Positions 13,848 through 29,179 of a stretch of DNA of 64,000 bases are shown here, one piece after another. The translations under genes and the position numbers were made by a program. The stretch comes from Candidatus Neomarinimicrobiota bacterium (lineage in GTDB: Bacteria > Fidelibacterota > Marinisomatia > Marinisomatales > S15-B10): the NCBI GenBank assembly GCA_036476315.1, contig JAZGBI010000008.1, forward strand, positions 45,791-109,790, read 5' to 3'. Each line of letters opens with the position of its first letter. Position 1 is the stretch's first letter. The notes below the pieces were generated by a model. That model made no database searches. It was given only the letters and a program-made list of their open reading frames with translations, and was not told the origin of the DNA.

Positions 13848-14600
13848 TTGAGGACAAGCAAGACCCCGAGTCATAATGTGGACCTGTCCATCATTATTCC
13901 CGTTTTCAACGAACGTGAAAAAATAGGAAAAGACGTAGAAGCGGCCGTTGCTTTCCTGAAGGCCCACGATTTCTCCGGGGAGGTCATCGTTGTGGATGAC
14001 GGAAGTTCGGACGGAACCCCCGATCTGGTCAACACACTGCTCCCTCCTTCTGACATACCCGTCAAAATTATTCGTTATGCCCATCGTGGAAAGGGATTCA
14101 CCTTGCGCAACGGGGTTATCAATGGACAGGGTGACTACATTATGTATACCGATAGCGGGGGCTGCGTACCCTTCGAGAATATTCTGCCCGGAATGGTCAT
14201 GCTGAAAGAAGGACGATGCGATCTGGCTCATGGCTCCAGGAGGCTCAACGAAAGCAAGATTCTGCGACCCCATTCGTGGCATCGGCGAATTCTGTCCAGG
14301 ATTTTCCGGTGGTTCATGATTAGCTGGATGAGAATCCCCGGCGAACTGACGGATACCCAGTGTGGTTTCAAGATCTACACGGGAAATGTGGCCCGGGATC
14401 TTTTTGGGACGTGCATTTCAAACGGTTTCATGTTTGAAGTGGAGATTATCATACGAGCCATGAGGCGAGGCTTTCGCATCAAGGAGTTCCCGGTTGAATG
14501 GATGGCAGACAGGGATAGCCGATTAAGACTGTGGAAGAATCTCCCACAAGGCTGGCTGGAACTCGTGAGAATCAGGAAGGTGCTACGGGGACAGAAGTAG
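13848..14600 (+). CDS. Family 2 glycosyltransferase, dolichyl-phosphate glucosyltransferase-like
   Basis: The fold and motif order resemble transferases that load a sugar onto a polyprenyl phosphate: LSIIIPVFNE (13-22), VVDDGSSDGT (48-57), HRGKGFTLRNG (79-89), and DTQCGFKIY. The metal-binding DxD position reads TDSGG (Asp102, Gly104), so the second Asp is missing. There is no C-terminal membrane pair. The start is uncertain: TTG at 13848 or GTG at 13878. A GGGAGG ribosome site instead fits an ATG at 13838 that opens a 12-codon frame (MNFLEDKQDPES) closing at 13876; a translated leader or a one-base sequence error near 13870 could explain this. It converges on the apbE-like gene 23 bases away. 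Confidence 0.85.
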   Translation: MRTSKTPSHNVDLSIIIPVFNEREKIGKDVEAAVAFLKAHDFSGEVIVVDDGSSDGTPDLVNTLLPPSDIPVKIIRYAHRGKGFTLRNGVINGQGDYIMYTDSGGCVPFENILPGMVMLKEGRCDLAHGSRRLNESKILRPHSWHRRILSRIFRWFMISWMRIPGELTDTQCGFKIYTGNVARDLFGTCISNGFMFEVEIIIRAMRRGFRIKEFPVEWMADRDSRLRLWKNLPQGWLELVRIRKVLRGQK

Positions 14601-14623: not shown

Positions 14624-15538
14624 CTATTGCGAGATGGAATGATCGCTCCAGGAACCGAACCGGAGCACTCTCTCTTCAACAGTATCCGGATTGTCTTCGA
14701 GAACGATCATAGAGAAGACGTCCTCGTGTCGAACACAGAAATCCTTGACATCTTCCAGTGACATCACCATGAAGGCGGTGGAGAGTGCGTCGCTGGTAGC
14801 GGCAATACTGGCAGAAGCCCATGCTGCGGTTCGACCCTGAGCCGGTCTTGCCCTCTGGGAGTCAATGATATGCTGTCCCTTTTCCAAACCAGAACCGCTA
14901 ATGGCTCGATCCTTGAGCTCCAATTGCGCAAGCACTTCCTCCCGGTTATCAGGATGACTCGTCGTAATGGGCCATCCGGATCTTCCCGGTGGTGCACCTA
15001 GTGCGAGAACGGAACTGAATCCTGCATGAATAAGGGCTCGTTCCATATCCCAGTCGCGCAAAATGTCAGCCATTCGATCGACCGCATATCCTTTTCCAAA
15101 GCCTCCGAGATCTATACTCACCTGTGGCGACAGAACTCGTACCGAGTGGTCTCTTTCGTTTAGTTCAAGGCAAAAGCCCGCGGGGGGAGGGGACTGGGAA
15201 CCAGCCGTAATATCGAATGCACCACCCGTTTCCTCGTACAGAGTCGAGCACATTTTCAGGCATTCGAATGTATCGGGACCGATCCGGATTGAGCGACCCG
15301 GTGAGAGGTTGTTGAGGCGTGAGATATCGCTGTTTTCAATGAAACGACTGATCTCCTGTTCCAGCTGTTGGATTTCCTCGAACGCTTGCCAGGCCGCCTG
15401 CTCGGCATACTGGATATCTTCATGAAGGACGTATATCTCAAACATGGATCCCATAAGCTTGCGGGCACTGCGGTGTATTCCGGTAGTGTAATCAAGGTCT
15501 CCCATGCCGGAAATCACGGGCTTGAACGATCGGTTCAT
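14624..15538 (-). CDS. ApbE-family FAD:protein FMN transferase
   Basis: ApbE attaches FMN covalently to a Thr/Ser of flavoproteins such as NqrC/RnfG-type FMN-binding domains. The 304-residue protein shows KLMGSMFEIYV near the N-terminus, EISRFIENSDISRLN (62-76), DLGGFGKGYAVD (143-154) and HIIDSQRARPA followed by SDALSTAFMV, all ApbE marks. The usual lipoprotein signal is absent, so it looks cytosolic or uses another start. The middle segment between FDITAG and DLGG is shorter than normal. It is the last gene of the minus-strand cluster and overlaps the Agl23-like gene by four bases. No FMN-binding acceptor protein is encoded in the window. Confidence 0.85.
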   Translation of the reverse strand: MNRSFKPVISGMGDLDYTTGIHRSARKLMGSMFEIYVLHEDIQYAEQAAWQAFEEIQQLEQEISRFIENSDISRLNNLSPGRSIRIGPDTFECLKMCSTLYEETGGAFDITAGSQSPPPAGFCLELNERDHSVRVLSPQVSIDLGGFGKGYAVDRMADILRDWDMERALIHAGFSSVLALGAPPGRSGWPITTSHPDNREEVLAQLELKDRAISGSGLEKGQHIIDSQRARPAQGRTAAWASASIAATSDALSTAFMVMSLEDVKDFCVRHEDVFSMIVLEDNPDTVEERVLRFGSWSDHSISQ

Positions 15539-17121
15539 TGTCTCTCCAACCGCTCCAGCAAATCGTTCCGGATGTAGCCGCGCAGTTCAACGCCGGGACG
15601 GAGCTCGATGTAGGAGTCGAAAAGGGGTACATACAGGTGTACCTCTCCTGGACCGGCCGATCCGTAGAGTTTGCTGACGAGATCTGTCTCGACCTCGGGA
15701 GAGGCGATTATGAGAGGAGCGTTTGGCGCGCTTTCATCAACCGTATTCCACCAGCCCACATTGGAGAAAGACCGCAAGTACCATGGAAGAGGCCAGTAGT
15801 CGTCCCCAGGCCAGATGACCTGAATGGGCAGATCCTCCCCAGAGGGATGGGCGCGGGAGACTGCTTCCACTCGACGGGCAACGGCTATGACATCGTTTCG
15901 TGGGTGAGCGTACACATACGGGTTTACGGGATCTGAAGAATACCGAAAGTTCGCAAGGTATGTCTGCCTCACAAGTTGGATGGCGCCGGCTGTCAGCAAA
16001 ACTGCTACCACGATTCGCATATGATAACTCTTCTGCGACCTGATAATTACCGTCGCTCCCAGCCCGGCCAAGAGGATCATCCCGTAATGAAATGTCAGCA
16101 AATTCCAGGGCGTCTTGTACGGAATTGCTGAGAATATAGCAGTCATGATCAGTGTAAAGTAGGCGATGTAGCGGCCAAAAGGCGCACTCACCCCAGCGAT
16201 TCCTGATTTGGTCATCAACGCAACGATTCCACAGAGGGCCAGAATGATGATGAGTCCCTCGCTCCACACCGGGCCCGAGCCAAAGCGTGAGTAAAGGAGA
16301 ATCTTCAGGTAGTAATACCATGAATGAATATGCCAATCGCTCTGAGTTCCCCGGCTGAGGTAGGCGCCGTATGATCGAAAAGCGTCCACGAATCCCTCGG
16401 GATTGGAAAGAAATGATGAATGGAATAACCCGGAGACGAGTGCTCCCACCAGAATCGCGATTGCTCCATGGCGAAGGTTCACCTTTTCCATGTTTCCAAA
16501 TGATATCGCTCCCCCCCGTTCCGTCCTTTTACGTGATACTGTCAAGATGAAAGCCAGAACCATCGAGGAAAAGACGACCAGACTTGTCTCCTTGGTTGCG
16601 TGTGTCAGTCCGAAAAAAAGACCGGTGAGAACGGCCCAGATCGATGTCCTGTTCTTGGTATACCGGAACGCAGATATGACTGTGCCGAATGTGAAGAAGA
16701 CAAATAAAGTTTCCTGGATATAGTAGCGACTGAAGAAAACCATGGCAGGAGAAATGGCGGCAATAAAGGAAGAGATAATGACTGCGCGGAGGCTTAAGCC
16801 ATCGATCAACAGGAAGGGCAAAACGGCAAGAAGCACTCCAAAGAAAACAGGTACTATTCGGAGAACCGTCTCATTGAGGTCCTTTAATTCTCGGACGCCA
16901 GATAGACGGGCGGGGATAAGGGTAACGTAGTTGAGCGTTGGTCCGTGGAATTCCTGGGGATTATACCGGTAGTAGCCGTCTTCGAGAAGGCGCCCCAGTT
17001 TCACCGCGTGAATCGCTTCGTCTCCGTGCATGGGTCGATCTTCCAGCTTGGGGAGACGAAGCGACAGTGCAACCAAGGAAGAAAGGAGAATGAAGATAAC
17101 CGGTGTTCTCTGCCATTTCAC
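15535..17121 (-). CDS. Agl23-like membrane protein (TIGR03663), GT-C glycosyltransferase fold
   Basis: The protein resembles the 'flippase activity-associated' Agl23 family, related to dolichyl-phosphate-mannose protein mannosyltransferases. Near the N-terminus, after one membrane helix, it has RPMHGDEAIHAVKLG and EFHGPTLNY; the acidic pair in the first periplasmic loop is the catalytic signature of GT-C enzymes. About ten to twelve hydrophobic helices follow, then a soluble C-terminal part of roughly 150 residues. Length is 528. It starts by overlapping the stop of the F5/8C gene and ends overlapping apbE, so the three are probably made together. A role in surface glycan assembly is inferred from the fold only. 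Confidence 0.8.
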   Translation of the reverse strand: MKWQRTPVIFILLSSLVALSLRLPKLEDRPMHGDEAIHAVKLGRLLEDGYYRYNPQEFHGPTLNYVTLIPARLSGVRELKDLNETVLRIVPVFFGVLLAVLPFLLIDGLSLRAVIISSFIAAISPAMVFFSRYYIQETLFVFFTFGTVISAFRYTKNRTSIWAVLTGLFFGLTHATKETSLVVFSSMVLAFILTVSRKRTERGGAISFGNMEKVNLRHGAIAILVGALVSGLFHSSFLSNPEGFVDAFRSYGAYLSRGTQSDWHIHSWYYYLKILLYSRFGSGPVWSEGLIIILALCGIVALMTKSGIAGVSAPFGRYIAYFTLIMTAIFSAIPYKTPWNLLTFHYGMILLAGLGATVIIRSQKSYHMRIVVAVLLTAGAIQLVRQTYLANFRYSSDPVNPYVYAHPRNDVIAVARRVEAVSRAHPSGEDLPIQVIWPGDDYWPLPWYLRSFSNVGWWNTVDESAPNAPLIIASPEVETDLVSKLYGSAGPGEVHLYVPLFDSYIELRPGVELRGYIRNDLLERLERQ

Positions 17122-17849
17122 ATCTTGCCCACGGGTTTACCGTAGATTTCCACTTCGACATAGTGATTCAGGTCGTTGCCCGTGTTACCGTTGCTGTAGA
17201 GGCGTACATATTGAGCTTTCACGCCTTTCGCGTCGATCAATTTTCCTTCGGCAGTCTCCACATAATGGAGGTCCTGGCCTGTTCCCAGACCCGATGAGTT
17301 GTCATGATCGTTGTTAAACAGGGTCTTCACATTTGTGTCAAACTCGGGGTCGTCAGCGACCTGAATCACAACATCAAAATAGACGCGGGGATTCTTGTGG
17401 AAATGCCACAAAAGTACTGCGTAGATGTCATGGGGAGCTCCGAGATCTATGGTGATGTGTTGCAGGAAAGGACCGAGTTCCACATAACTTCCTTCGGTAC
17501 CTTTCTTATCCCCGTCAGTGCACAGTTCAAGCTCTCCGATGATAGGTTCTCTATCGCTGCTGTCCACCGGTCTGCCGAGAGCGACATTTCTTGTCCCTGA
17601 TGGAGCATAAAATGGCGGACGGGGTTTTCCCAGCGGCTTCTCAAGTTTGGGAACCCGCATATCCTGAGGGGTACCGATGAACATGGGTTTGGGCAGCTCA
17701 ATATCCAGGGGCGCCATTTGTTGACCCGTTGTATCGGAAGGTGTTTGACTTGCGGAATAGGCTTCATCTTTATTCGGACAGGGTACAATCAAGGCCAATG
17801 AGACCAGGGATAGTGCGCTCATATTGACGCGGATGCCTCTCTCCATCAT
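17118..17849 (-). CDS. Secreted F5/8 type C (discoidin)-like carbohydrate-binding protein
   Basis: The 243-residue protein begins with a signal-like hydrophobic stretch (MSALSLVSLALIVPC), possibly a poor lipobox, then a Pro-rich linker (about 45-80). The rest matches a galactose-binding-like F5/8C fold: NVALGRPVDSSD near 88, then ITIDLGAPHDIYAVLLWH, and the closing strands AQYVRLYSNGNT and VEVEIYG. Such domains bind sugars or lipids. No catalytic motif is seen. It lies 17 bases after the MFS transporter and overlaps the Agl23-like gene, so it may serve as the surface or periplasmic binding part of the same sugar pathway; this is inference from context. Confidence 0.72.
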   Translation of the reverse strand: MMERGIRVNMSALSLVSLALIVPCPNKDEAYSASQTPSDTTGQQMAPLDIELPKPMFIGTPQDMRVPKLEKPLGKPRPPFYAPSGTRNVALGRPVDSSDREPIIGELELCTDGDKKGTEGSYVELGPFLQHITIDLGAPHDIYAVLLWHFHKNPRVYFDVVIQVADDPEFDTNVKTLFNNDHDNSSGLGTGQDLHYVETAEGKLIDAKGVKAQYVRLYSNGNTGNDLNHYVEVEIYGKPVGKM

Positions 17850-17866
17850 GTTGTTCTTCTCCTCAT

Positions 17867-19417
17867 CTAGACATTCCGAATATCCGGAGATTCTCCCTTT
17901 TCTGGAGTTAGCTCCACGGCTTTGTACCCCCCCTTCGCTCTGAAGTAGAAGATAAGGATCAGGTAACAGACGAGCATTGCGGCGGGGAAAAAGGCGACTT
18001 TTGCCAGGGCATTCTTCTTCGCTCCGTCACTGATTCTTTGGATCACTTCCCTTTCCCCGTTGCGTAGCCCCTCAACCTTTTCCTGGTCAATGGGTTGGTA
18101 GGTCCCGAACACGCTCAGTTTCTCCTCTCCCACAACCTGTGAATGGAGGGCGGGATTCTCTTTTTCAAGTTCCGTTTCGATGGCTTTGTCCTGAATATTT
18201 CCCAGGAATGCTGCCCCGATGACCCCGACGCTGAGCATCCCTACTCCACCTATCGCATTGATAGTAAGAGCACCCCCTCTGGGAAATCTCTCAGAGGCGA
18301 CACCCAGCATGGTTGGCCAGAAAAACGCTTTTCCCAGACCATAAACCGTGGCAGCCAGAAATATGAGAATTCCCGCAGCCTTCGAAAGGAAAATGAGTCC
18401 CAGGGTGGCAATCGTACTGCTCACCGCCAACAAGCCAAGGGGCTTCAGCCTGTGAACGATCGGTCCGGCAAGGAATCTCAGTCCCATCATGAGAAATGCG
18501 GTATAGACCAGGACCCACCCCGGTTGGATTCCAATATCTTTTACAACGGGGGTGACCAATTCCGTTATCCAACTGTCAGTGCCCAGTTCAGTTGTGGCCA
18601 GGGGAATCATGATGAGAAGGAGGAAAATGAATATTGACCGCCCCACGTTTCGCGTGTAGGAGCCATAGGCAATAATCAGCACGAGCGACACAATGCTCTT
18701 TGCCGCCAAGGACCATTGAAATATCCGGCCGATTTCAGCAACCATGATAACCACGACGATAGCGGCTCCGACGACACCTGCCTCCTGGAGCATGGCCTTG
18801 TAGGGTATACCCGCCTTTACTCGTTCATGGACAGGAAACTCTGCACGGATCATCATCAGTCCATACATCAGCGCCGGAATTAAGACAAGTCCTACTTTCC
18901 ATTTCCAGCCGAGTCCCGGCATCAAGATCAGTATGAGAAGTCCACCCAAAACCATTCCGCCGGGCCAGCCGGCATGAAGAATGTTCAGCCACTTCGTTTT
19001 TTCTTTTGAGTAAACAGTGGCAACAACGGGATTGATCACCGCCTCCACAGTGCCATTTCCCAGCGCCAGGATGAATGTGCCCAGGTAAAGCATCCAGTAG
19101 CCATTCGCGAGAATCGTAATGACCGCCGAAGCCACATGACATACCCACGCAAAAACCAGAGCCCTCCCGTAGCCAATCTTGTCAATCACAAGGCTGAACA
19201 GGATAATGCTTAAAGCAAAAGGCCACAATCCCACGCCAAGGAGCTCTCCTTTCTGAGTTTCGCTCAGATTGAACTCTGCGCCCCAGGCACCAATAACGTT
19301 TGCTCTAATAATAAACCCAAATGATGTGGCCACAAGTGCGATAAAGCACGTCCAGAAAAGCCACCTCTCTGCGGTGAAGCGACTGGCGACCGCGGGGTTG
19401 GAGGTTGAGTTAATCAT
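17867..19417 (-). CDS. Major facilitator superfamily transporter
   Basis: The 516-residue protein has about twelve hydrophobic helices, the loop-2/3 signature area VIDKIGYGRAL (about 80-90), and a central break after helix six (RAEFPVHERVKAG). Features such as LALGNGTVEAVINPVVATVYSKEKTKWLN and HAGWPGGMVLGG resemble sugar-type MFS carriers from Planctomycetes, Verrucomicrobia and FCB bacteria. An extra hydrophilic loop of about 70 residues lies near the C-terminus before the last helix. It is encoded between the cytochrome b gene (138 bases upstream) and the F5/8C gene, inside a sugar-oxidation cluster, so uptake of a sugar or keto-sugar is a reasonable guess. Confidence 0.85.
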   Translation of the reverse strand: MINSTSNPAVASRFTAERWLFWTCFIALVATSFGFIIRANVIGAWGAEFNLSETQKGELLGVGLWPFALSIILFSLVIDKIGYGRALVFAWVCHVASAVITILANGYWMLYLGTFILALGNGTVEAVINPVVATVYSKEKTKWLNILHAGWPGGMVLGGLLILILMPGLGWKWKVGLVLIPALMYGLMMIRAEFPVHERVKAGIPYKAMLQEAGVVGAAIVVVIMVAEIGRIFQWSLAAKSIVSLVLIIAYGSYTRNVGRSIFIFLLLIMIPLATTELGTDSWITELVTPVVKDIGIQPGWVLVYTAFLMMGLRFLAGPIVHRLKPLGLLAVSSTIATLGLIFLSKAAGILIFLAATVYGLGKAFFWPTMLGVASERFPRGGALTINAIGGVGMLSVGVIGAAFLGNIQDKAIETELEKENPALHSQVVGEEKLSVFGTYQPIDQEKVEGLRNGEREVIQRISDGAKKNALAKVAFFPAAMLVCYLILIFYFRAKGGYKAVELTPEKGESPDIRNV

Positions 19418-19555
19418 GGTATCACCGTTCGGCTAGTGGAAGAATTGATCCAGGATATCATCCCTGAAAGTTTGGACTTGAAAAGAGAGTGCCAACCTTC
19501 AAATAAGTTAAGAGGTTGCGGCATCTCTGCAAACGGATAGTTGGAGAATCAGTTC

Positions 19556-20293
19556 TCAATGTGGCTCGTTCTTTGATTTCGATTTCTTTGCAAGTTTTTC
19601 ATATTCCATTGGATGATCGTTCATCATCTCTTCCCCTGTGGTCCTCCCGTGCCACCACGAGAGGGAGCCGGGGAATCGTGAAGGCTTGAAATGGACGTTG
19701 TAGAAGTGCCAGACGAATAGGGCCACTGCTGCAAGGACAGCTTCATCCGCATGAATCTCAACCGCCAAAGTGTAGGTTAACCAGGGCAGATATCTCTCGG
19801 TGATCTCCGGGAACCAAAGAACAGTGCCCGTGCCGATCATGATCACACATCCCCAGTAAACTGCCCAGTAGTCAAACTTTTCATAGTAGGTGTAACGGTC
19901 AAATCGAGGCTTCACCTTACGGAGGCCCAGAAAGTACAACGAATTCTGACCTAAGTCTGTGAAATCCTTCCACCTGGGTAGCAGTTCGGCGAATTCACGG
20001 CGTCCTTCCCTCACAAAAATGAGGTACGTGAGATGCCACAATGAGACCATTATCAAAGCGATGGCTGCAATCAAGTGAATTTGTCGATATATGGTAATTC
20101 CTCCGAGCGCTCGAATTGTATCCTGGCTCCAGCGAATATCTCCAGGCGTACCAAGGGAAAACCACAAGGGTATCCCCGTGAGGATCAGAGCGATAACGCT
20201 CAGGAACAAAACGATATGTTGGATACGAAAGTGAAGACTGAATCGTTGAAAGGATTCGGTTTCCGTAGTTTTCTTATCCCTCGATGATCTCAT
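19556..20293 (-). CDS. Membrane cytochrome b (FdnI/NrfD-partner or b561-like)
   Basis: The 245-residue protein has four main membrane helices with histidines placed as haem b ligands: RIQHIVLFL (helix 1), RQIHLIAAIALIMVSLWH (helix 2), and EIHADEAVLAAVALFVWHFYNVHF (helix 4). This layout is that of di-haem cytochrome b subunits that exchange electrons between quinones and periplasmic partners, such as formate dehydrogenase gamma. The N-terminus is charged and the tail is Lys-rich. It starts 36 bases after the seven-haem cytochrome c gene, so the two probably form one quinone-linked complex. The direction of electron flow cannot be read from the sequence. Confidence 0.82.
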   Translation of the reverse strand: MRSSRDKKTTETESFQRFSLHFRIQHIVLFLSVIALILTGIPLWFSLGTPGDIRWSQDTIRALGGITIYRQIHLIAAIALIMVSLWHLTYLIFVREGRREFAELLPRWKDFTDLGQNSLYFLGLRKVKPRFDRYTYYEKFDYWAVYWGCVIMIGTGTVLWFPEITERYLPWLTYTLAVEIHADEAVLAAVALFVWHFYNVHFKPSRFPGSLSWWHGRTTGEEMMNDHPMEYEKLAKKSKSKNEPH

Positions 20294-20329
20294 ATGTCCT
20301 CGCCGTCCTCTTTTCAGATATTCTTCGGT

Positions 20330-22222
20330 TCATCTCCTGTTTCTGCGAATGGTGCTTTGAATCAAATCTCCGAGGATATGAAGTCCCAGGAATCCCACCA
20401 TGACGACGATGGCCCACTTGAAGAACCTTCTTACCTGCAGGCGCTGCGTCTCTTCGAGGCCCTGCATTTCGTGCATGAGTACGATCTGTCCGGCCTCTGT
20501 TTCAACCGGAGTTTGAATGTCCACCTTGCCAAAGAAGAAGGGAGCGTCGGTGGCGTGGCAATCTTCGCAACCTCGAACGCCCAGTGATTGAACGGCGGGT
20601 CCAACATCATGAGCATAGGCCCAGGAATAGGGCCGGGCAGAGCGATGATCCTCTGAAATAAGCCCACGGGAGCCTGCCAGGCGGTGGATCTTACCCCCGG
20701 TGACATAGACGGGAACGCCTGGGACCTTGGCGTGAGATTCAAGTTCCGACAGAACTGTGGCCATCTGCTCTTGGGATAGAACAGGGAGTGCTTCCGCACT
20801 GATGGGCTGATCGCCGGAGATAAGCTGTCCTGCGACAGACCAGACGACGTCGGGGATTATGGGGACCACGGAATCTCCGTCCAGAATAGCCCAGTAGGAA
20901 GGCCAGAATAGCTTATGCGGAGCGATTCTCCCATTTTCTTGTCGGACAAAAACGGGATACACAACATGTGGCAACACCCTGTCAGCTTTGTTAACTCCCT
21001 GGACACCGAGGGCATGGAGTCTGGAGGTTTTCACCCCTTGAATCTTCAGTTCAGGCCAGGGTCCGGAATGACAGGCGGTACAGGTGAGCTTTTCAAAATG
21101 AATCGAAGGAATACCGGGATGTTCCGGCTGGGGCGATCCCATTCTTCCAGAGATGGGTACCGTGGATAACTGATCCGGAAGGTGGCATCCCTCACACGAC
21201 AAGGTTGCTGCGAAGGGGTTATTCTCGGATGAGAGTTCTCCTTCGTTCCCGCGCACCATCTTATGATCGAGTCCATTCCGGTGGCAATCGACGCAGGTCA
21301 TACCGAGCGATAGGTGCACATCTTCATCCAGATGCCACTTCTCGGGACTTTCGGAACCTATTTCGCCGAGTGGTTTATTGGAATGGCAGAAGTAACATCG
21401 CTCGGCCGGGGCCTTGCGCACGATGTTGAAGAAAACTTTCCCTTTGGGATTGAAACGACTTCTGTCATATTCAATGGATGGAGGCACCAAACCTGGCCGA
21501 TCCAAGAGTCCCCCCAGAAACGGATCCCAGGTGTCGGGCATATTCCTGGCTGAACCTTCCACCCAGGCGAAACCACTCGAGGCGGCGGCGGCCCAGCGAA
21601 AATTCTCCCGGGCTATTTGAGATGCATAATCCGACTGATCGTGTGACGGTTCAGCATCATGACAACTTAGACAATTGATCTCAAGGCGACCCGAGACTGT
21701 CCAGCGGAAAAAGAACTCAGGTGACTGAACTGCCTCCTCCTCGCCCACAGTTCCTCCCGGTAAATGGCGGCCGAACCGTTTCAGATAAAGCCACGGCACG
21801 AGGCCGATCTCTTGCGGTCTGAAAGTGCCGGGCCAGGGCCTGTAGGAGACAGGAATCTGCGTGGCTGTCTTCTGGTCCACAAAAATCCAGGGTTCTCCCG
21901 GGCGACCCGGAGCCACGTCGGGATCTGATGCATTGAAATGCCATCCCGAGCTTATTTTGTCATAGTCATGACAGTCAGCCCCGCAGGTCTCACGGGTGGA
22001 AAACGGCATTAGTGGCTCGTCATCAGGTAGAACTACGGAGCCATTTTCATCATACAGGTGGATGAGGTGAACCGGAATGGAGCGACTACCGTCACTCACA
22101 TCGCCAATCAATTCTTCCTGTGCCCGGAGTTGAAGAGAGAAGATTATGAAAGCCGCGACCGAGGGATAGGAGAAACCGCGCTTGTGGAAAAACGTCTTTC
22201 TTATTTCCGCATGAAAACCCAT
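20330..22222 (-). CDS. Seven-haem membrane-anchored cytochrome c
   Basis: The 630-residue protein has an N-terminal signal (SVAAFIIFSLQLRAQ) and a single C-terminal helix (WAIVVMVGFLGLHILGDLI), so the haem part faces the periplasm. Haem sites in order are CGADCH, CLSCH, CYFCH, CVDCH, CEGCH, CTACH and CEDCH. The first has three residues between the cysteines (CX3CH) and the other six are standard. Several further histidines (for example GLDHKM, HLDEDVH) could be distal ligands. The gene begins 17 bases after a Tat-exported Gfo/Idh/MocA gene and ends 36 bases before the cytochrome b gene. I infer a periplasmic electron carrier between a sugar dehydrogenase and the membrane; its exact family is not recognised. 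Confidence 0.85.
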   Translation of the reverse strand: MGFHAEIRKTFFHKRGFSYPSVAAFIIFSLQLRAQEELIGDVSDGSRSIPVHLIHLYDENGSVVLPDDEPLMPFSTRETCGADCHDYDKISSGWHFNASDPDVAPGRPGEPWIFVDQKTATQIPVSYRPWPGTFRPQEIGLVPWLYLKRFGRHLPGGTVGEEEAVQSPEFFFRWTVSGRLEINCLSCHDAEPSHDQSDYASQIARENFRWAAAASSGFAWVEGSARNMPDTWDPFLGGLLDRPGLVPPSIEYDRSRFNPKGKVFFNIVRKAPAERCYFCHSNKPLGEIGSESPEKWHLDEDVHLSLGMTCVDCHRNGLDHKMVRGNEGELSSENNPFAATLSCEGCHLPDQLSTVPISGRMGSPQPEHPGIPSIHFEKLTCTACHSGPWPELKIQGVKTSRLHALGVQGVNKADRVLPHVVYPVFVRQENGRIAPHKLFWPSYWAILDGDSVVPIIPDVVWSVAGQLISGDQPISAEALPVLSQEQMATVLSELESHAKVPGVPVYVTGGKIHRLAGSRGLISEDHRSARPYSWAYAHDVGPAVQSLGVRGCEDCHATDAPFFFGKVDIQTPVETEAGQIVLMHEMQGLEETQRLQVRRFFKWAIVVMVGFLGLHILGDLIQSTIRRNRR

Positions 22223-22239
22223 CTGTTAGCCGATGGAGA

Positions 22240-23601
22240 TCAAATCTTGAAATCGTCAGGATTGAATTCAACTTTCATTCCAGCGTCCAGAGCTTCGTGG
22301 ATTTTCAATACTGTGACAGCCGTCTCGTAACCCACATCTTCGGGACAATTGAGGTTCGCCCTCCCCCGAATGGCATCGAAGAAATTCTCCAGGTGGGGTT
22401 TGTGATAGGGTTCATTGAAGTCAACTGCCAGTTTGTGTTCAGGAGGAGCCATGGTCTCTCTCACGTCTATGATGGCGCCCGTTTGTACCGTTTCTTTCTC
22501 CTCGACTGGTGCCTTCAGATAGCCCCTCTCAATCCATTTTGTCCAGTCAGGTGAAGATGGCTCACGGTAAATCCCTTCTCTTCCTGCAGCCTCTGATATG
22601 AGCAGGGTACCCTGGTCTCCCATGAAATGCTCATAATATCCTTCACTGCTATTGGAGTTTATGGTTTGATAGAAGGCCTTCACAGCTCCCTGATTAGGTT
22701 CATACTCATAGATAACCATAACGGTGTCATCCCACTGATGCGTTTTCGTGTCATAGTAATAGTTGCCGCCACTGGCAAGAACAGATCTTGGGGGCGTTTC
22801 CAGGAACCAGTTGAAAATGTCAATCTGGTGCGAGCCCAAATCGACCACGGGCCCACCTCCCAGGTGACGGTACCAACGCCAGTTTCGGAATTCATGCATG
22901 GACTCGTAGCCATACCTTTCCAGAGTTGCCTGGTCGATGGCCGCTTTCTTGGGCCAGCCAAGGTCCGGTTGGGCGGAGCGATTCCATTGCCCACTGATGG
23001 TAGTGATCTTGCCCAGGATTCTGGCTTCCTTTATGAGCTTATGATAACAGTGAAGGTATCTCGGGTTGCTTCGACGTTGATGTCCAATCTGGAGATGCCT
23101 CCCCGTCTGTCGTGCAGTCTGAACCATTCTCCGTGCACCGTCAACCGTTTTGGACATTTCCTTTTCGCAATACACATGAAGACCGGCTCTCAAACAATGA
23201 ACCGTTTGGTCAGCATGCCAGAAATCGGGCGTGGCAATAATGACTGCATCAAGATCGTTTTCCTTGTCCAGCATTTCTCTGTAGTCGACATATTCGCCCA
23301 CGTTATGACCGTATTTTCTCAGCAGGCCGGAAGCCCTTTTGAGATTGTATGCTTCCCAGATATCGCACACAGCCTTGAAACGTATTCCCGACGTCTTCAG
23401 GCACGCGTTTAGAAGAATCTGGCCTTGTGCTCCAACTCCAAGCAAGGCAATATTCAAATCGTTAGAATTTCCCATGCGAACACGGGCAATACTTTTTGGT
23501 GCCAACACCAGCCCTGCCCCTGCTGCCGTTGTCATTCGTAGAAAACTTCGCCGGTCCACCTGTTTTTCTTTGTCACGTTTTTTCTCGTTCACTCCGGCCA
23601 T
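22240..23601 (-). CDS. Tat-exported Gfo/Idh/MocA-family oxidoreductase (EKE type)
   Basis: A twin-arginine signal (DRRSFLRM, then a hydrophobic stretch) starts this 453-residue protein, so it works in the periplasm, probably with a cofactor bound before export. The Rossmann part is NIALLGVGAQGQ; the active-site strand reads CEKEMSKT where most relatives have EKP; the catalytic region is DLGSHQIDIFNWF. The frame extends to 23649, but an AGGAGGTGAT ribosome site four bases before the ATG at 23601 fixes the start. It lies 17 bases upstream of the seven-haem cytochrome c. Relatives with EKE occur in glycoside-oxidation loci of Bacteroidetes and Planctomycetes (from memory). The substrate is unknown. 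Confidence 0.87.
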   Translation of the reverse strand: MAGVNEKKRDKEKQVDRRSFLRMTTAAGAGLVLAPKSIARVRMGNSNDLNIALLGVGAQGQILLNACLKTSGIRFKAVCDIWEAYNLKRASGLLRKYGHNVGEYVDYREMLDKENDLDAVIIATPDFWHADQTVHCLRAGLHVYCEKEMSKTVDGARRMVQTARQTGRHLQIGHQRRSNPRYLHCYHKLIKEARILGKITTISGQWNRSAQPDLGWPKKAAIDQATLERYGYESMHEFRNWRWYRHLGGGPVVDLGSHQIDIFNWFLETPPRSVLASGGNYYYDTKTHQWDDTVMVIYEYEPNQGAVKAFYQTINSNSSEGYYEHFMGDQGTLLISEAAGREGIYREPSSPDWTKWIERGYLKAPVEEKETVQTGAIIDVRETMAPPEHKLAVDFNEPYHKPHLENFFDAIRGRANLNCPEDVGYETAVTVLKIHEALDAGMKVEFNPDDFKI

Positions 23602-23742
23602 ATCACCTCCTGTTTTCTTGATCCGCTGCGGGTTGACCACTGTTCGCACTGAAAGATGCCGGATGTATCACCCGGTGACTGCAGAGCTTTGACTTCAAAC
23701 CTAACCTATGACGATTGAGTGGTTACGCGGGGACGCCACAGA

Positions 23743-25125
23743 CTATAATGTCCACCCGTCGCGGTATTCCCGGTGTACGAGTTCGTTAGCGTCAGGTACG
23801 TTCATGATTTCCATTTTCTCACCATCCCACTGCAGTTTCTGCCCCGTTTTGATCGCAATATTCCCGAGCAATACCATTTCGGTTAATGGTCCTGAAATGG
23901 AGAAATTCGAACTCGCCTCTTTTCCTCCCTTGCATGCCTCAATCCATTCCTCGTGAATCCCCTGAACCCGGGGAATGGTTTTTGGTGGCAGTGTGTACTC
24001 CTGCATTTTTGTTTCCGGGATAAGACGTGGATTCAACCCGTACGTTCCGCACATGAGTTTCCCTCTATCTCCCACGAAAATTACCCCACCACCGGAGTCG
24101 CCCATCCGTCTGCCTTCTTCAAGTTCTTCAGGTCGTGGTGGCAACAGACCGCCGGAATACCAGGTCAGCTTAACGGGGGGCTTTTCGTCACGGGCTGGAA
24201 AGCTGTATCGAACGACGGCGGCGTGAGGATATGTCTCCTCATTGAGTGGCGTTGAACTCGCTTCGACACCAGTGGGATGGCTCAGTTTGAGAGCCCAGAA
24301 AGGCGAGTCAATAATATGACATCCCATATCACCCAGTGCCCCCGTGCCGAAATCTCCCCATCCCCGCCACTTGAATGGTGCGTAGGCGGGGTGATATGGT
24401 CGGAATGGGGCAGGACCGAGCCACAGATCCCAGTCGATGGTGGCGGGAGTGGGAGGAGATTCCTTGGGCCTCGGAATCCCCTGAGGCCAAATGGGTCGGT
24501 TCGTCCATGTATGGACTTCACGCACCGGGCCTATTGCACCGTCCCAGATCCATTCACAGATGAGACGGTTGCCCTCCCCGGCATGCCCCTGGTTGCCCAT
24601 CTGACTGGCAATCCCGGCTTCATGGGCAGCCTCGGCAAGCTTTCGAGCTTCATATACTGTGTGGGTCAATGGCTTCTGGCAAAAGACATGCTTGCCCAAC
24701 TGAATCGCCATCATGGCAATCACAGCATGGGTATGATCGGGCGTCGCAATGACGACCGCATCAACCCCTTTCTCATTTTCCAGTAATCTTCGAAAATCCC
24801 GGTACCTTTCGGCATCGGGATATGTCTCGAATACTTCAGCAGCGTAGCCGTCATCCACATCGCAGAGAGCCACGATGTTCTCACTGGTCAGGGAGGCTAT
24901 GTTGTTTCTTCCCATCCCCCCGAAACCGATGGCGGCGATATTGAGCCTGTCGCTGGGTGGTGTGGAACCGCTCCCGCCCAGCACAGACCGGGGGACGATC
25001 ATGAACGCAGCAGCAGCCGCCGTCCCCGTCAGGAAATCCCGCCGTGACATGAGCCGCCGACCATCTTTCCGAACTATCCCCCCCCCTCTGTCTCTGTTCT
25101 TCTCAGTTTTGGAATCTTTTTTCAT
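23743..25125 (-). CDS. Tat-exported Gfo/Idh/MocA-family oxidoreductase (QKP type)
   Basis: The 460-residue protein carries a Tat signal (MSRRDFLTG followed by an Ala-rich stretch) after a 25-residue charged leader; a start at the inner Met26 is also possible. The Rossmann motif is NIAAIGFGGMGRNN, the active-site strand CQKPLTHT, and the catalytic region DMGCHIIDSPFW. A loop rich in Trp and Pro (TWTNRPIWPQGIPRP) is typical of the long planctomycete/FCB subgroup. It lies between the DUF1080 gene and the EKE-type oxidoreductase gene on the same strand. A role in oxidising a sugar hydroxyl in the periplasm fits the family and the neighbours. Confidence 0.87.
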   Translation of the reverse strand: MKKDSKTEKNRDRGGGIVRKDGRRLMSRRDFLTGTAAAAAFMIVPRSVLGGSGSTPPSDRLNIAAIGFGGMGRNNIASLTSENIVALCDVDDGYAAEVFETYPDAERYRDFRRLLENEKGVDAVVIATPDHTHAVIAMMAIQLGKHVFCQKPLTHTVYEARKLAEAAHEAGIASQMGNQGHAGEGNRLICEWIWDGAIGPVREVHTWTNRPIWPQGIPRPKESPPTPATIDWDLWLGPAPFRPYHPAYAPFKWRGWGDFGTGALGDMGCHIIDSPFWALKLSHPTGVEASSTPLNEETYPHAAVVRYSFPARDEKPPVKLTWYSGGLLPPRPEELEEGRRMGDSGGGVIFVGDRGKLMCGTYGLNPRLIPETKMQEYTLPPKTIPRVQGIHEEWIEACKGGKEASSNFSISGPLTEMVLLGNIAIKTGQKLQWDGEKMEIMNVPDANELVHREYRDGWTL

Positions 25126-25182
25126 GACGTCTGAAATCTAACAAAGAACTGCAATTCTACCCATTCCTTTGATGACAGATGA

Positions 25183-26286
25183 TCACTCGCCGATCTCTTC
25201 CAGCCAGACATTGCGGTACCGCACCCGGTTTCCGTGATCCTGGAAGAAAATTCCTCCCGCCTGGGAAATGTCACTGTCCACTTCTCCACCCGTCGGAAAG
25301 TCTACTTCCACATCTTTGTGTATTTCCACTCCGTTGTGGAGGACCGTCACGGTGGCGCTCCTGATTTTCTTTTTGTTGGAGTCAAAGCGTGGAGAGCGGA
25401 AAGAGATATCGTAGGTTTGCCATTGAAGTGGAGGGGCACACATATTGATACGGGGATTCGCCACCTTGTAAATTCCCCCGCATTCATTGTCCCGCCCTTC
25501 AAGGCCGTAACTGTCCAAAACCTGAATCTCGTACCGTCCCTGGAGATAGACGCCGCTGTTCCCCCGGTCCTGTCCCCGGGCTTCGGGCATAAAGGGAGTC
25601 CGGAATTCGACGTGGAGCCGGAAATCAGTGAATTTCCTCCTGGTAACGATTGAGCCCGAGCCTGGTTTGACTTCCATCGCACCATCAACAAGCCTCCACT
25701 GAACCCGTTTTTTTCTGAGATTGTTCAGGATGCGGTTGAGGAGACCTCGTGAGGATGGAAGTTGCTCCCATTCCAGGAAATCGGTGCCGTCAAATAATGT
25801 GATGGCTTCTTCCGATGTTTTTGCCCCCAGGGTGGCGGAGAGACGTTTGACTTTTTCCATCTGAAATACGCCCGCTTCGCCGCTCCCGGACTTGAGAGAA
25901 CCACTGAATTGTTCTTGCCGAATGCTGCCCGTCAATTCGAGTCCGGTGTACTCCCCCTGCTCGATGATTCCTCCAAATACCACCGCATCGTCTTTCTCCT
26001 CACCATCGAGTATGGCACCCAGCTCTTCCCACTCCCCGAACACTCGAGACACCCTGGCTCTGTACTCTCCGTTACCCATAGCGACAACCTGGGCGGCCAG
26101 TGGTGCTTCTGTGCCGTCATTCATCGAAGAGTAGCCCTCATAATCGCCCATCACCGCAACCGGATCTTCAGCCGCCACACGTCGGAGTGATTCCTGATCC
26201 CACGGGTCTCTTGCCTCGTGCGAGGGGGTTAGTAGCGTAAAGGTGGCGGCAAGGGCAATCATGGAGCGGTGGCTTCTCATTCTCAT
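25183..26286 (-). CDS. Secreted DUF1080 (3-keto-disaccharide hydrolase-type) protein with extra N-terminal domain
   Basis: DUF1080 proteins have a concanavalin-like fold; characterised members cleave or modify 3-keto-glycosides made by Gfo/Idh/MocA oxidoreductases. This 367-residue protein has a signal peptide (SMIALAATFTLLTPSHEA), an N-terminal beta-rich domain (about 30-155), then the DUF1080 domain from ITLFDGTDFLEWEQL with DFRLHVEFRTPF, GNSGVYLQGRYEIQVLDSYG and a final GGIFFQDHGNRVRYRNVWLEE. The last motif is highly typical. An AAGGAGG ribosome site precedes the ATG. Two exported oxidoreductases lie just downstream, which supports a linked oxidise-then-cleave scheme outside the cytosol. 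Confidence 0.87.
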   Translation of the reverse strand: MRMRSHRSMIALAATFTLLTPSHEARDPWDQESLRRVAAEDPVAVMGDYEGYSSMNDGTEAPLAAQVVAMGNGEYRARVSRVFGEWEELGAILDGEEKDDAVVFGGIIEQGEYTGLELTGSIRQEQFSGSLKSGSGEAGVFQMEKVKRLSATLGAKTSEEAITLFDGTDFLEWEQLPSSRGLLNRILNNLRKKRVQWRLVDGAMEVKPGSGSIVTRRKFTDFRLHVEFRTPFMPEARGQDRGNSGVYLQGRYEIQVLDSYGLEGRDNECGGIYKVANPRINMCAPPLQWQTYDISFRSPRFDSNKKKIRSATVTVLHNGVEIHKDVEVDFPTGGEVDSDISQAGGIFFQDHGNRVRYRNVWLEEIGE

Positions 26287-26426
26287 GGTTGATCATACCT
26301 CCTTACTTTGGTTTGCTTCGGGGACGGTCTGAGAATTTCGCAAATAACACATTGTTCGCCACCACAGTCCGGAGGGCACGGTCCGCACTTCGAGAGTGGG
26401 TACGGCATCCCATCTGAATCCGGACC

Positions 26427-27422
26427 TCACGATCGCTCAAAAGATGCGTCAAATGCAACCGCAGAGGGAGTGAAGTCGATTTCTCTGGCAAATTCACACG
26501 CCTCTCTGGCCCCGTGCTCACGGTCCATCCCGCTGTCTTCCCATTCCACGGAGAGCGGTCCTGAATATCCCAGGCTGTTGAGTCTACGTATAATTTCTTC
26601 GAAATTGATGCTGCCGCGACCCAGGGAGCGAAAATCCCAGCCCCTATTGGGATCACCGAAATTCAGGTGCGATCCGAGAATACTCGTTCTGCCGTTCAGT
26701 TGCAGTTCCGCGTCCTTCAGATGAACATGATAAATCCTATCGGGAAATTCCGAGAGAAAGAAGAGAGGGTCGATCATTTGCCAGTGGAAGTGACTCGGAT
26801 CGAAGTTGAATCCAAAGGATTTGCGGTTCTCCAGGGACTCCAGGGCTCTACGTGCCGTAATTATGTCAAAGGCGATCTCAGTTGGGTGAACTTCCAGGGC
26901 GAACCGCACACCACATTCCTCAAATACATCGAGTATAGGATTCCACATCTTCGCGAAAAATGAAAATCCCTCCCCAATCGTGTTCTCCTCCAGAGGGGGA
27001 AAAGAGTAGATCAGATGCCAGATGGAAGATCCGGTGAAACCGTTGACCGTCCCGATTCCGAGGTTTTGGGCAGCCTTGGCTGTCTTCTTCATTGTTTCAA
27101 CGGCCCACTGCCGCTTTTTCTCAGGATCTCCTGCATACGCCTTCGGCGCGAGGGCGTCGGACCGACCGTCGTTGTTCGGGTCACAGACCAACTGTCCCGC
27201 AAGATGGTTACTGATGGCATAAAGCTTCAGATTGTTTTCCCTCAGTATTTCGAGTTGCCTTTTGCAGTAATCCACATCCGCTGCTGCCTTTTCCACTTCC
27301 AGATGGTCTCCCCAGCATGCCAGTTCCAGACCATCATATCCCCAATCTGCCGCCTTTTTCGCTAACTCCTTCAGCGGTACATCTGCAAACTGCCCCGTGA
27401 AAAGGGTTATGGGTCTAGTCAT
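26427..27422 (-). CDS. Sugar phosphate isomerase/epimerase-like TIM barrel (AP endonuclease 2 superfamily)
   Basis: The 331-residue protein follows the IolE/xylose-isomerase-like TIM-barrel plan. Expected metal ligands are seen in order: [28 protein letters not shown] and LSVEWEDSG. The N-terminal strand [28 protein letters not shown] is typical. There is no signal peptide, so it acts in the cytosol. In known keto-sugar pathways such proteins isomerise, epimerise or dehydrate the oxidised sugar. It sits 76 bases after the cytosolic Gfo/Idh/MocA gene and 140 bases before the DUF1080 gene. The reaction cannot be fixed from the sequence. Confidence 0.86.
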
Positions 27423-27498
27423 TTGTCGTTCCCCTTTCGTTCACCGTTTGGTTGACTGAAATCTCCGCTCAAAAGGTGAAGCCTTTCGCCGCCTCTTT

Positions 27499-28671
27499 TC
27501 ACTTTTCCACTGCGGTCCATTTTTTCTCACTTTTCGAGCTGGCGAGAACGGCCTCAATGAATTGGATGCTCCTGACACCATCCTCAACGGACGGGAAATC
27601 AAGGGCAAGTTCGTCAGGTTCCACTCCTTCAAGCTGTGCCAGGAGCGTTTCGGCGAAGTTGCGGTATATATTGGCGAATGCCTCGATGTAACCTTCAGGG
27701 TGACCGGATGGAAGGCGTGTGGCTCGAGCCGCTCCTGGACTGATCCGGTGGACATATTCGTTCCCGCGGGACCAAGTTTGTGCGGGTCCGTCGAGCTCCT
27801 TGACCTTAAGGTGATCGGGATGTTCCTGGTGCCACTCCACACTCTTCTTTTCGCCATACACCCGAATGGCCAGATCGTTCTCTTCTCCCACGGAAATCTG
27901 GCTTGTGTGCAAGACGCCCTTTGCTCCACTGTCGAATCTCAGAAGACAGTTCCCATCATCATCCAATCTGCGGTCTTCCACGAAAGTGGTGAGATCTGCA
28001 CAGACGTGGGTAATCTTGAGTCCAGTAACGTATTCTGTCAGATTTCCGGCGTGAGTACCGATGTCACCCATGCATCCCGACGGCCCGCTCTGCTCCGGAT
28101 CCGTTCTCCAGGCGGCCTGCTTATTCCCTGTCTGTTCCAGCGGAGTGGAAAGCCATCCCTGAGGGTACGTCACCACTGCTTTCCGAATCTTGCCTATTTC
28201 TCTTCTACGAATCAGATCCCTTGCCAGCTTCACCATGGGATAGCCGGTATAGTTGTGTGTCACGGCAAACAGTCTCAGGGATTCCTCCACAATTCCTCTC
28301 AGCTCTTTTGCCTCTTGTACACTCACCGTCATGGGTTTGTCACACACCACATGAAAGCCCTTTTTCAGAAAGTCGCGAGCGACAGGAAAATGAAGATTAT
28401 TGGGAGTCACGATCGAGACGAAATCTATCCGGATTCCTTCGGGCAGCCTGCTTTCCTTCTCAATCATCTCAATGTAGTTCCCGTAGGCTCGACCGCCCTC
28501 GAGAAAAAGCTCCCGGGCCATCGGTTTTGACTTTTCAGGGTCTCTGCTAAACGCCCCGGCTACCAAATCTATCTTGCCATTCATGAGTGCTGCTTTTCGG
28601 TGGACGTCTCCTATGAATGCTCCGGGGCCACCGCCCACCATTCCCATTTTCAACTTCCGTTCAATTCTCAT
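27499..28671 (-). CDS. Cytosolic Gfo/Idh/MocA-family oxidoreductase (DKP type)
   Basis: The 390-residue protein is a NAD(P)-dependent sugar oxidoreductase with Rossmann motif GMVGGGPGAFIGDVHR, a long first loop (AGAFSRDPEKS), active-site strand CDKPMTVS and catalytic region MGDIGTHAGNL. It lacks a signal peptide, unlike its two paralogues downstream. Such proteins in keto-sugar clusters often reduce or oxidise C3 or C4 of the imported sugar. It is the first gene of the minus-strand unit; a GGGGG ribosome site lies before the ATG. No clear promoter was found in the region upstream. Confidence 0.87.
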   Translation of the reverse strand: MRIERKLKMGMVGGGPGAFIGDVHRKAALMNGKIDLVAGAFSRDPEKSKPMARELFLEGGRAYGNYIEMIEKESRLPEGIRIDFVSIVTPNNLHFPVARDFLKKGFHVVCDKPMTVSVQEAKELRGIVEESLRLFAVTHNYTGYPMVKLARDLIRRREIGKIRKAVVTYPQGWLSTPLEQTGNKQAAWRTDPEQSGPSGCMGDIGTHAGNLTEYVTGLKITHVCADLTTFVEDRRLDDDGNCLLRFDSGAKGVLHTSQISVGEENDLAIRVYGEKKSVEWHQEHPDHLKVKELDGPAQTWSRGNEYVHRISPGAARATRLPSGHPEGYIEAFANIYRNFAETLLAQLEGVEPDELALDFPSVEDGVRSIQFIEAVLASSKSEKKWTAVEK

Positions 28672-28903
28672 CCTTCCCCCTGAATGACGTATGGTTTTCG
28701 TCTGGATTTGATGTTCGAGAGGGCTTGAGGATGTTTCTTTTCATCAGAATGTCCTTGTTTCCGAGAAAACCCCCTTTAACATTAAGCAATTTGTGACATC
28801 CCAACAACCGAATATGCAGGCCTCTTTTCACTGGGCAGCAGCCAATTTCGGAGGTATCCATATGAATCTGATTGAGCTGCCAGTTACATTGGGGCGAAAT
28901 GGA
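28672..28903. other. Divergent intergenic region with a small open frame
   Basis: This stretch separates the minus-strand sugar cluster from the plus-strand ileS unit, so it should hold promoters for both. The plus-strand one is clear (see 28904-28932). A weak TTGTTG and TAATGT pair can be drawn on the minus strand near 28775-28810. A 26-codon frame, MNLIELPVT... with Arg-rich end, starts at 28862 behind an excellent GGAGG (28852-28856) and stops at 28942; it has no known relative and overlaps the promoter. Confidence 0.4.
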
Positions 28904-28932
28904 TTGACTTTCAGACGGACGAGAGGTAAAAT
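28904..28932 (+). promoter_or_regulatory. Sigma-70-type promoter for the DUF2905-ileS unit
   Basis: TTGACT (28904-28909) and TAAAAT (28927-28932) are separated by exactly 17 bases. Transcription would begin near 28939, about 20 bases before the DUF2905 start codon. Confidence 0.7.
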
Positions 28933-28960
28933 TTCTGGCTAAAAAGCAAAGAGAGTTTTC

Positions 28961-29179
28961 ATGACAGGCAAGCTGTTTTTCATCCTGAGCGCTGTTTTTT
29001 TTATCTTGTGGATAGTCACGACTTCTGGCTCGCAGGTTCCCTTTTTTGGGAAGCTGGGACATCTGCCGGGTGACATCCAGATTCAGAGGGACAACTTTTC
29101 TTTGTACCTTCCCATTGGCTCATCTATACTTGTGAGCGTAGTTCTCACGTTTTTGCTCCGGTTGTTCTCCAGATTCTGA
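28961..29179 (+). CDS. DUF2905 small membrane protein
   Basis: This 72-residue protein has two hydrophobic helices (about 4-21 and 50-69) joined by FFGKLGHLPGDIQIQRDNFSLYLPIG. The linker L-G-x-L-P-G-D-I-x-I-x-R-x-N-F is the DUF2905 signature, and the length is normal. Its function is not known. It follows the promoter directly and ends three bases before ileS, so the two are co-transcribed. Confidence 0.88.
   Translation: MTGKLFFILSAVFFILWIVTTSGSQVPFFGKLGHLPGDIQIQRDNFSLYLPIGSSILVSVVLTFLLRLFSRF

Follow-up and report, generated by a model that had tools for sequence, protein, structure and literature searches.

The stretch analyzed here, referred to as the window, comprises 64,000 nucleotides from a Candidatus Neomarinimicrobiota bacterium (GenBank assembly GCA_036476315.1, contig JAZGBI010000008.1, positions 45,791 to 109,790) and contains an eleven-gene cluster running on the minus strand from position 28671 down to 14624. 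In that order, the cluster encodes a cytosolic Gfo/Idh/MocA oxidoreductase (GfoCyt), a TIM barrel, a DUF1080 protein, two further Gfo/Idh/MocA oxidoreductases with putative twin-arginine translocation (Tat) signals (Tat-Gfo 1 and Tat-Gfo 2), a multihaem cytochrome c, a cytochrome b, an MFS transporter, an F5/8C-like protein, an Agl23-type membrane protein, and ApbE. The successive intergenic gaps are 76, 140, 57, 93, 17, 36, 138, 17, −4, and −4 bases, such that 17 bases separate Tat-Gfo 2 from cytochrome c, 36 separate cytochrome c from cytochrome b, and the last two junctions (F5/8C-like/Agl23 and Agl23/ApbE) are 4-base overlaps. A preliminary description of the window had reported this one-strand cluster, its coordinates, and the tight spacing of the cytochrome c/b pair, all of which were confirmed. 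Because related genomes repeat the gene order, it is, on comparative grounds, no chance arrangement, and the link between the exported oxidoreductase and the cytochrome emerges as a well-supported conserved unit.

Table 1. Features of the cluster and the gene that converges on it
Feature	Position	Strand	Family matches and other observations
GfoCyt, cytosolic Gfo/Idh/MocA oxidoreductase	27499..28671	-	PF01408, PF22725, PF02894
Xylose-isomerase-like TIM barrel	26427..27422	-	PF01261 146.7 bits; signal peptide none seen
DUF1080 protein	25183..26286	-	PF06439 135.3 bits; signal-like N-terminus by eye
Tat-Gfo 1, BT2158-like glycoside 3-dehydrogenase	23743..25125	-	NF058561 576 bits; TIGR01409 18.2
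Tat-Gfo 2, immediately 5′ of cytochrome c	22240..23649	-	PF01408 64.9 bits; TIGR01409 19.8
Multihaem cytochrome c, C-terminal membrane anchor	20330..22222	-	Six CXXCH and one CX3CH; PF14522 34.1 bits
Cytochrome b (b561/FdnI-like, DUF4405-like)	19556..20293	-	PF01292 41.6 bits, PF14358 31.3 bits
MFS transporter, predicted carrier of keto sugar or sugar	17867..19417	-	PF07690 73.6 bits
F5/8C-like protein, N-terminal hydrophobic stretch, motif ELPKPMFIGTP	17118..17849	-	PF22633 23.9 bits, below cut-off
Agl23-type membrane protein	15535..17121	-	TIGR03663 207 bits, cut-off 126.25
ApbE (FAD:protein FMN transferase family)	14624..15538	-	PF02424 145.1 bits; signal peptide none seen
Family 2 glycosyltransferase (GT2), converging on ApbE	13848..14600	+	PF00535 61.4 bits

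Conservation was assessed in 245 genomes of the same phylum, the window's own included, and in 68 genomes of a second phylum, with the neighbourhoods of cytochrome loci read by tblastn. Close relatives of the window cytochrome (short type) were found at 13 loci from two phyla outside the window, a count that excludes L022 (25 % identity, E 5e-11, no Gfo gene on its 4,034-base contig). A distant version (long type) occupies 12 second-phylum loci, 10 of which have enough flank to be counted; the excluded L104 and L116, on contigs of 3,479 and 3,724 bases, hold the cytochrome only. Contig C94 of genome G188, with Tat-Gfo 2 at the contig edge, was counted neither way. In 12 of the 13 short-type loci, spanning both phyla, the gene immediately 5′ of cytochrome c is Tat-Gfo 2, in the same orientation; the two frames, taken from their listed starts, overlap by 4 bases in two of these twelve. 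At the lone exception, L016 of genome G031, a RhuM/Fic-domain gene (15603-16601) abuts the cytochrome near the contig end. Within the same-phylum sample, cytochrome c was detected in 11 genomes (weakly in G238), Tat-Gfo 2 in 10 (E 1e-60), and the F5/8C-like protein in 11; although each is individually rare, all three occur together in 9 of the 245. A close cytochrome (E below 1e-130) was present in 4 of the 68 second-phylum genomes and any match at E 1e-20 in 14, and a scan of named genome contigs retrieved one locus, L012, from Candidatus Hydrogenedentes, which belongs to this second phylum.

The long type displays the order ApbE, Tat-type Gfo, and cytochrome c/b on one strand in all 10 loci with enough flank. 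Its proteins are roughly 26-38 % identical to those of the window, and eight CXXCH sites are present in 9 of the 12 cytochromes; Pfam checks of this type comprised the Tat model on L103 only and the ApbE domain on L103 and L105. The preliminary description had proposed such a neighbourhood comparison, and the oxidoreductase-cytochrome pair proved conserved in both types, with the reservation that the loci share ancestry and the counts are not independent trials. The most telling indication of a functional pair is that Gfo and cytochrome have stayed adjacent in two divergent versions.

A comparison of contig sizes in a protein database agrees with this linkage. Among the 120 best homologues listed for each protein, 16 of 119 cytochromes share their longest-contig size with some Tat-Gfo 2, compared with a chance mean of 0.63 and maximum of 4 when sizes were shifted by 1 to 200 in either direction (400 shifts). 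Cytochrome and F5/8C, and likewise Tat-Gfo 2 and F5/8C, share contigs in 6 of 119 cases each, versus expectations of 0.58 and 0.80. Shared contigs in the range 3,362 to 4,174 bases can hold hardly more than the oxidoreductase and cytochrome genes. The names among these homologues include Planctomycetota and Sedimentisphaerales, together with Omnitrophota in the cytochrome list and KSB1 in the Tat-Gfo 2 list. A plasmid collection gave no cytochrome match and Gfo identities of no more than 32.5 % in the best 20 of 1026 matches, and no relative of Tat-Gfo 2 was retrieved from IMG/VR.

The cytochrome c, the single match of its kind in the genome, had been described as a seven-haem protein. Six CXXCH sites bear this out, while the first site, at residue 80, is not CXXCH: a one-residue insertion makes it CX3CH. 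Seven CXXCH sites occur in 100 of 120 listed homologues and six in the other 20, and the first site reads CX2CH in 90, CX3CH in 18, and CX4CH in 3 (in 9 it was not recognized by the search expression). The protein falls outside the NCBIfam families for octahaem tetrathionate reductase (18.4 bits vs 375), DmsE decahaem cytochromes (20.2 vs 192.2), and methanogenesis multihaem cytochromes (20.3 vs 250), and a sequence search of the PDB returned one chance row (E 0.35). In genome G238, L022 carries two adjacent multihaem genes with six and eight CXXCH sites, the six-site one being very distantly related to the window cytochrome.

Cytochrome b belongs to the b561/FdnI type, its PF01292 score lying above the cut-off of 30.1, and also matches DUF4405 (PF14358) over the cut-off. 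Eleven of the 13 short-type loci have a membrane protein gene after that of the cytochrome; L013 is cut by the contig end, and L102 was not counted either way. This partner passes the PF01292 cut-off in all three second-phylum loci scanned (L012, L084, and L101). Cytochrome c is fused to a PF01292 domain in 3 of 3 long-type proteins scanned and also in P0119 (53 % identity), fusions which point to joint action of the c and b parts.

Several of the remaining cluster genes would provide the sugar chemistry. Cleavage of glycosides through 3-keto intermediates is a recently recognized alternative to glycoside hydrolysis. Besides PF01408 in the three Gfo genes, the families PF01261, PF06439, PF01292, PF14358, PF07690, PF02424, and TIGR03663 were matched over their cut-offs. 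The DUF1080 protein belongs to PF06439, annotated '3-keto-disaccharide hydrolase' (cut-off 26.8), resembles PDB entry 4qhz (E 1.1e-30), and is predicted to cleave 3-keto glycosides. Tat-Gfo 1 resembles NF058561, the BT_2158_fam glycoside 3-dehydrogenases, over most of its length without reaching the cut-off of 750 bits (Tat-Gfo 2 scores 99.8), and it matches PDB entries 8tdf (E 1.3e-128, over residues 53-457) and 8tdh (E 1.1e-125). For BT2158 itself, the published description is of a glycoside 3-dehydrogenase that acts in the periplasm and is required for disaccharide use (PMC11300592); BT2157 is described as a 3-ketotrehalose hydrolase (PMC9007349). Both Tat-Gfo proteins pass the Tat signal model TIGR01409 (cut-off 16.7) and match PF10518, the Pfam Tat model, slightly under its cut-off; both are therefore predicted to be exported by a twin-arginine signal.

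Tat-Gfo 2 represents a different subfamily from Tat-Gfo 1. In the PDB it matches DgpA-type proteins best (E 2e-18), followed a few places further down by glucose-fructose oxidoreductase, and it also matches GH109 structures by sequence. PF01408 over cut-off, the GxGxxG motif, and the lysine and histidine positions place it in the Gfo/Idh/MocA superfamily, and its GxGxxG, EK, and DLGxH positions are invariant among 37 aligned sequences; the EK lysine and DLGxH histidine are what we take to be its active-site positions. Its start is perhaps Met-17 (23601), the database copy P0121 having 453 residues. A second Tat-Gfo 2 copy in genome G185 (L034 9792-11249, 59 %) has no cluster neighbours within the 20 kb examined. 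GfoCyt, in which no hydrophobic stretch was found, has levoglucosan dehydrogenase as its best NCBIfam match (118 bits, below the cut-off of 650) and is a possible reductase of imported keto sugar. The TIM barrel shows weak IolE similarity (39.5 bits vs a cut-off of 290), and none of the eleven cluster proteins has a Pfam match to GMC-type flavin adenine dinucleotide (FAD) dehydrogenases. Same-phylum cytochrome loci number nine (L013-L021), and at six of them the set adjoins a PF06439 gene, which stands alone in L013, L014, and L017 and is fused to a TIM barrel in L019, L020, and L021; of the other three, L015 and L018 begin at a Gfo gene, and L016 showed no PF06439 gene. A relative of the window MFS transporter (50 %) adjoins the set in L014.

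At the other end of the cluster, assignment of the F5/8C-like gene in the preliminary description is only partly borne out: its scores lie under the Pfam cut-offs (23.9 bits vs 27.8 and 20.2 vs 28.2), while some homologues do carry PF00754/PF22633. Proteins of this kind, recognizable by the motif ELPKPMFIGTP, occur in 61 of the 68 second-phylum genomes, often as tandem paralogues. Most of the F5/8C loci examined there (L079-L098) have no cytochrome; Agl23 stands beside F5/8C in 8 of these 20, none of the 8 with a cytochrome, and L082 and L092 hold a GT2 gene as well. The GT2 gene of the window was absent from the earlier inventory, and PF00535 genes also oppose ApbE in L014, L017, L018, and G185. 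Upstream of the cluster, a 133-residue frame (28661-29062) without a Pfam match overlaps the GfoCyt start and is probably no real gene. Elsewhere in the window, two long open frames (40666-43596, 976 residues, and 62105-63307, 400 residues) match no Pfam family at E 0.01.

ApbE raises the question of a flavin carrier. The domain scores far above its cut-off (PF02424, cut-off 25.6), and no other ApbE was found in the genome, whose assembly is 95.8 % complete. Genome-wide, FMN_bind (PF04205) and NqrB/RnfD (PF03116) gave no match (DUF2271, Flavodoxin_4, and FMN_red were not searched), which leaves the puzzle of one ApbE with neither of two searched substrate domains. A motif of the type D..[ST][SGA][AS][ST] is presumably the ApbE flavin-attachment site. 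Its strict form is absent from the eleven cluster proteins, the TIM barrel giving a single loose match; the looser expression gave single motif-like matches in the Gfo proteins of L103 and L115 and in the cytochrome of L106 (and its near twin L104), none conserved, and one in P0095 among 120 cytochrome homologues. Modification of a cluster protein by ApbE at the canonical site was considered and dropped, the motif not being conserved. No signal peptide was seen in the alignment of short-type ApbE proteins, and several long-type ones start with a hydrophobic or lipoprotein-like stretch. Because Tat substrates fold before export, a cytosolic ApbE could act on them. DUF4405 cytochromes are described as known ApbE companions (PMC11334425), and ApbE hints at a flavin step in the electron route.

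The window and its relatives present the genes themselves, Tat- or signal-like N-termini, haem motifs, the order Tat-Gfo/cytochrome c/membrane partner, and c-b fusions. From these features we infer all catalytic and electron-transfer steps, including the direction of flow, along a route from enzyme-held nicotinamide through haem c and haem b to quinone. We consider it fairly probable that the Tat-exported Gfo enzymes oxidize glycosides in the periplasm and that the electrons pass via cytochromes c and b to quinone. Tat-Gfo 1 would oxidize the glycoside at C3 with a nicotinamide held by the folded enzyme, and the DUF1080 protein would cleave the resulting keto glycoside. The MFS carrier would then import the keto sugar for cytosolic reduction by GfoCyt, and the TIM barrel would act as an epimerase or hydratase. 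Because the keto sugar would leave the compartment, the exported enzyme could not regain its oxidized cofactor by re-reduction; instead, Tat-Gfo 2 and cytochrome c would take up the electrons, ApbE might supply a covalent flavin bridging two-electron hydride and one-electron haem chemistry, and cytochrome b would hand the electrons to quinone. A haem-copper oxidase encoded elsewhere in the genome (COX1, 460.5 bits) could end the chain.

Several observations weigh against periplasmic oxidation coupled to the cytochromes, or at least against an obligate coupling. G185, represented by one contig and 95 % complete, has the sugar set (two BT2158-like genes, a TIM-DUF1080 fusion, Tat-Gfo 2, and an MFS gene) and no match to cytochrome c; its F5/8C, Agl23, ApbE, and GT2 genes lie together about 10 kb from the sugar genes. 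The sugar set can therefore manage without this cytochrome, being either redox-neutral or served by another acceptor. Conversely, G031 has the cytochrome, F5/8C, Agl23, and ApbE, with no Tat-Gfo 2 found. The preliminary description had named, as an outcome that would speak against its idea, a cytochrome pair next to unrelated genes with the sugar genes elsewhere; half of this is seen at one of the 13 short-type loci, where the G031 cytochrome stands without Tat-Gfo 2. Its interpretation holds insofar as oxidoreductase and cytochrome form a conserved unit, while an obligate link is contradicted by G185 and G031. Among the matches listed, Tat-Gfo 2 relatives seem more numerous than those of the cytochrome (6568 of 7999 at E 1e-100 vs 2192 of 7997 at E 1e-3, a rough comparison), and because they look commoner, many may work without a cytochrome. 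The membrane partner reaches the PF01292 cut-off in none of five same-phylum relatives scanned (L014, L015, L016, and L020 without a match, L018 below cut-off); its position and recurring histidines suggest a cytochrome b in these cases. ApbE was not seen beside four second-phylum short-type cytochromes, three of which have little flank. Finally, no conserved flavin-attachment motif was found in the Gfo or cytochrome proteins, so that no carrier for the hydride-to-haem step came to light.

These observations invite other explanations. Glucose-fructose oxidoreductase and GH109 enzymes keep their nicotinamide, and the Gfo enzymes here may likewise be redox-neutral, oxidizing, cleaving, and re-reducing with a retained cofactor, such that the cytochrome would merely rescue reduced enzyme or form a side branch. 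The sugar set of G185, the sequence matches of Tat-Gfo 2 to structures of both those families, and the apparent excess of Gfo relatives among the matches listed would all fit this account; we nevertheless judge it unlikely, as Gfo and cytochrome are immediate same-strand neighbours at 22 of the 23 informative loci, across two divergent types, which suggests a main-line partner. Electrons might also flow the other way, with quinol reducing cytochromes b and c for periplasmic reduction of a Gfo-held keto sugar or another acceptor. Families such as PF01292, NapC/NirT, and NrfB-like cytochromes include quinol-oxidizing systems, and matches to them, some below cut-off, lend this direction some plausibility. 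The BT2158-like enzyme and DUF1080 protein point instead to oxidative cleavage, and the closest FAD system studied has a mono-haem cytochrome c that is described as taking the electrons of glucoside 3-dehydrogenase (PMC9915066); reverse flow is accordingly the least probable of the alternatives considered here, and distinctly so.

A rather unlikely, though less improbable, alternative concerns the composition of the cluster: F5/8C, Agl23, the glycosyltransferase, and ApbE could constitute an envelope glycosylation or modification system to which the sugar and cytochrome genes are mere neighbours. The breadth of F5/8C in the second phylum and its cytochrome-free pairing with Agl23 there are in keeping with such a system, as is the retention of F5/8C-Agl23-ApbE-GT2 in G185 without the cytochrome. 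It accounts neither for the Gfo-cytochrome pairing nor for the long-type loci, in which ApbE is next to Gfo and tblastn detected no F5/8C or Agl23; for the Gfo-cytochrome core it is compatible with periplasmic glycoside oxidation coupled to quinone.

More tentatively, with the balance somewhat against it, the genes may exemplify a widespread new class of respiratory dehydrogenase in which a Tat-exported, nicotinamide-keeping Gfo enzyme and an ApbE-attached flavin deliver electrons to a seven- or eight-haem cytochrome c/b and on to quinone. If glycoside oxidation is indeed coupled in this way, cells would respire glycosides by C3 oxidation without soluble nicotinamide adenine dinucleotide (NAD). 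To our knowledge, the re-oxidation of an exported nicotinamide enzyme without a soluble NAD pool is an open question, which a conserved Gfo-cytochrome c/b unit would directly answer. A role for a large, mostly nameless group of multihaem cytochromes and a testable sugar-to-quinone enzyme would follow. Searches of open-licence literature brought up no link between a Gfo enzyme and a multihaem cytochrome, which is no proof of absence.

Several known systems share parts of this arrangement. The combination of ApbE with a DUF4405-type membrane cytochrome is like that of the flavinylation-associated cytochromes described in PMC11334425, in contrast to which the genome has no FMN_bind or NqrB/RnfD match and the cluster no strict attachment motif. 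Successive redox steps are likewise found in the levoglucosan pathway, where LgdA, LgdB1, LgdB2, and LgdC carry out oxidation, elimination, hydration, and reduction in turn (PMC7676230); it differs from the cluster in that the abstract reporting it mentions no multihaem partner. In the Agrobacterium AtOGE set, which also proceeds by successive redox steps, a Gfo-type enzyme reduces 3-keto-glucose with NADH, a result given there as preliminary, and the dehydrogenase was assayed with ferricyanide, the word 'cytochrome' being absent from the main text (PMC10628242).

The cluster resembles the BT2158/BT2157 system of Bacteroides thetaiotaomicron in that Tat-Gfo 1 is similar to NF058561 and a DUF1080 partner is present. 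It differs in that Tat-Gfo 1 scores under the family cut-off and in that the window cluster holds the cytochrome c/b pair and ApbE, which we take the BT operon to lack. LacABC of Caulobacter crescentus is a GMC-type FAD dehydrogenase. It works with DUF1080, and a nearby transporter, epimerases, and a reductase are reported to matter for lactose use (PMC9007349); the window cluster parallels this system, as far as that source describes it, in its predicted periplasmic C3 oxidation with DUF1080 and in its neighbouring transporter gene and putative epimerase and reductase genes. With Rhizobium radiobacter, whose FAD glucoside 3-dehydrogenase is described as passing electrons to a mono-haem cytochrome c (PMC9915066), it shares a haem protein as predicted electron acceptor. 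Unlike both, the putative oxidant here is a Tat-signal Gfo/Idh/MocA protein with a nicotinamide fold, and electrons would be accepted by a multihaem cytochrome that has a membrane partner.

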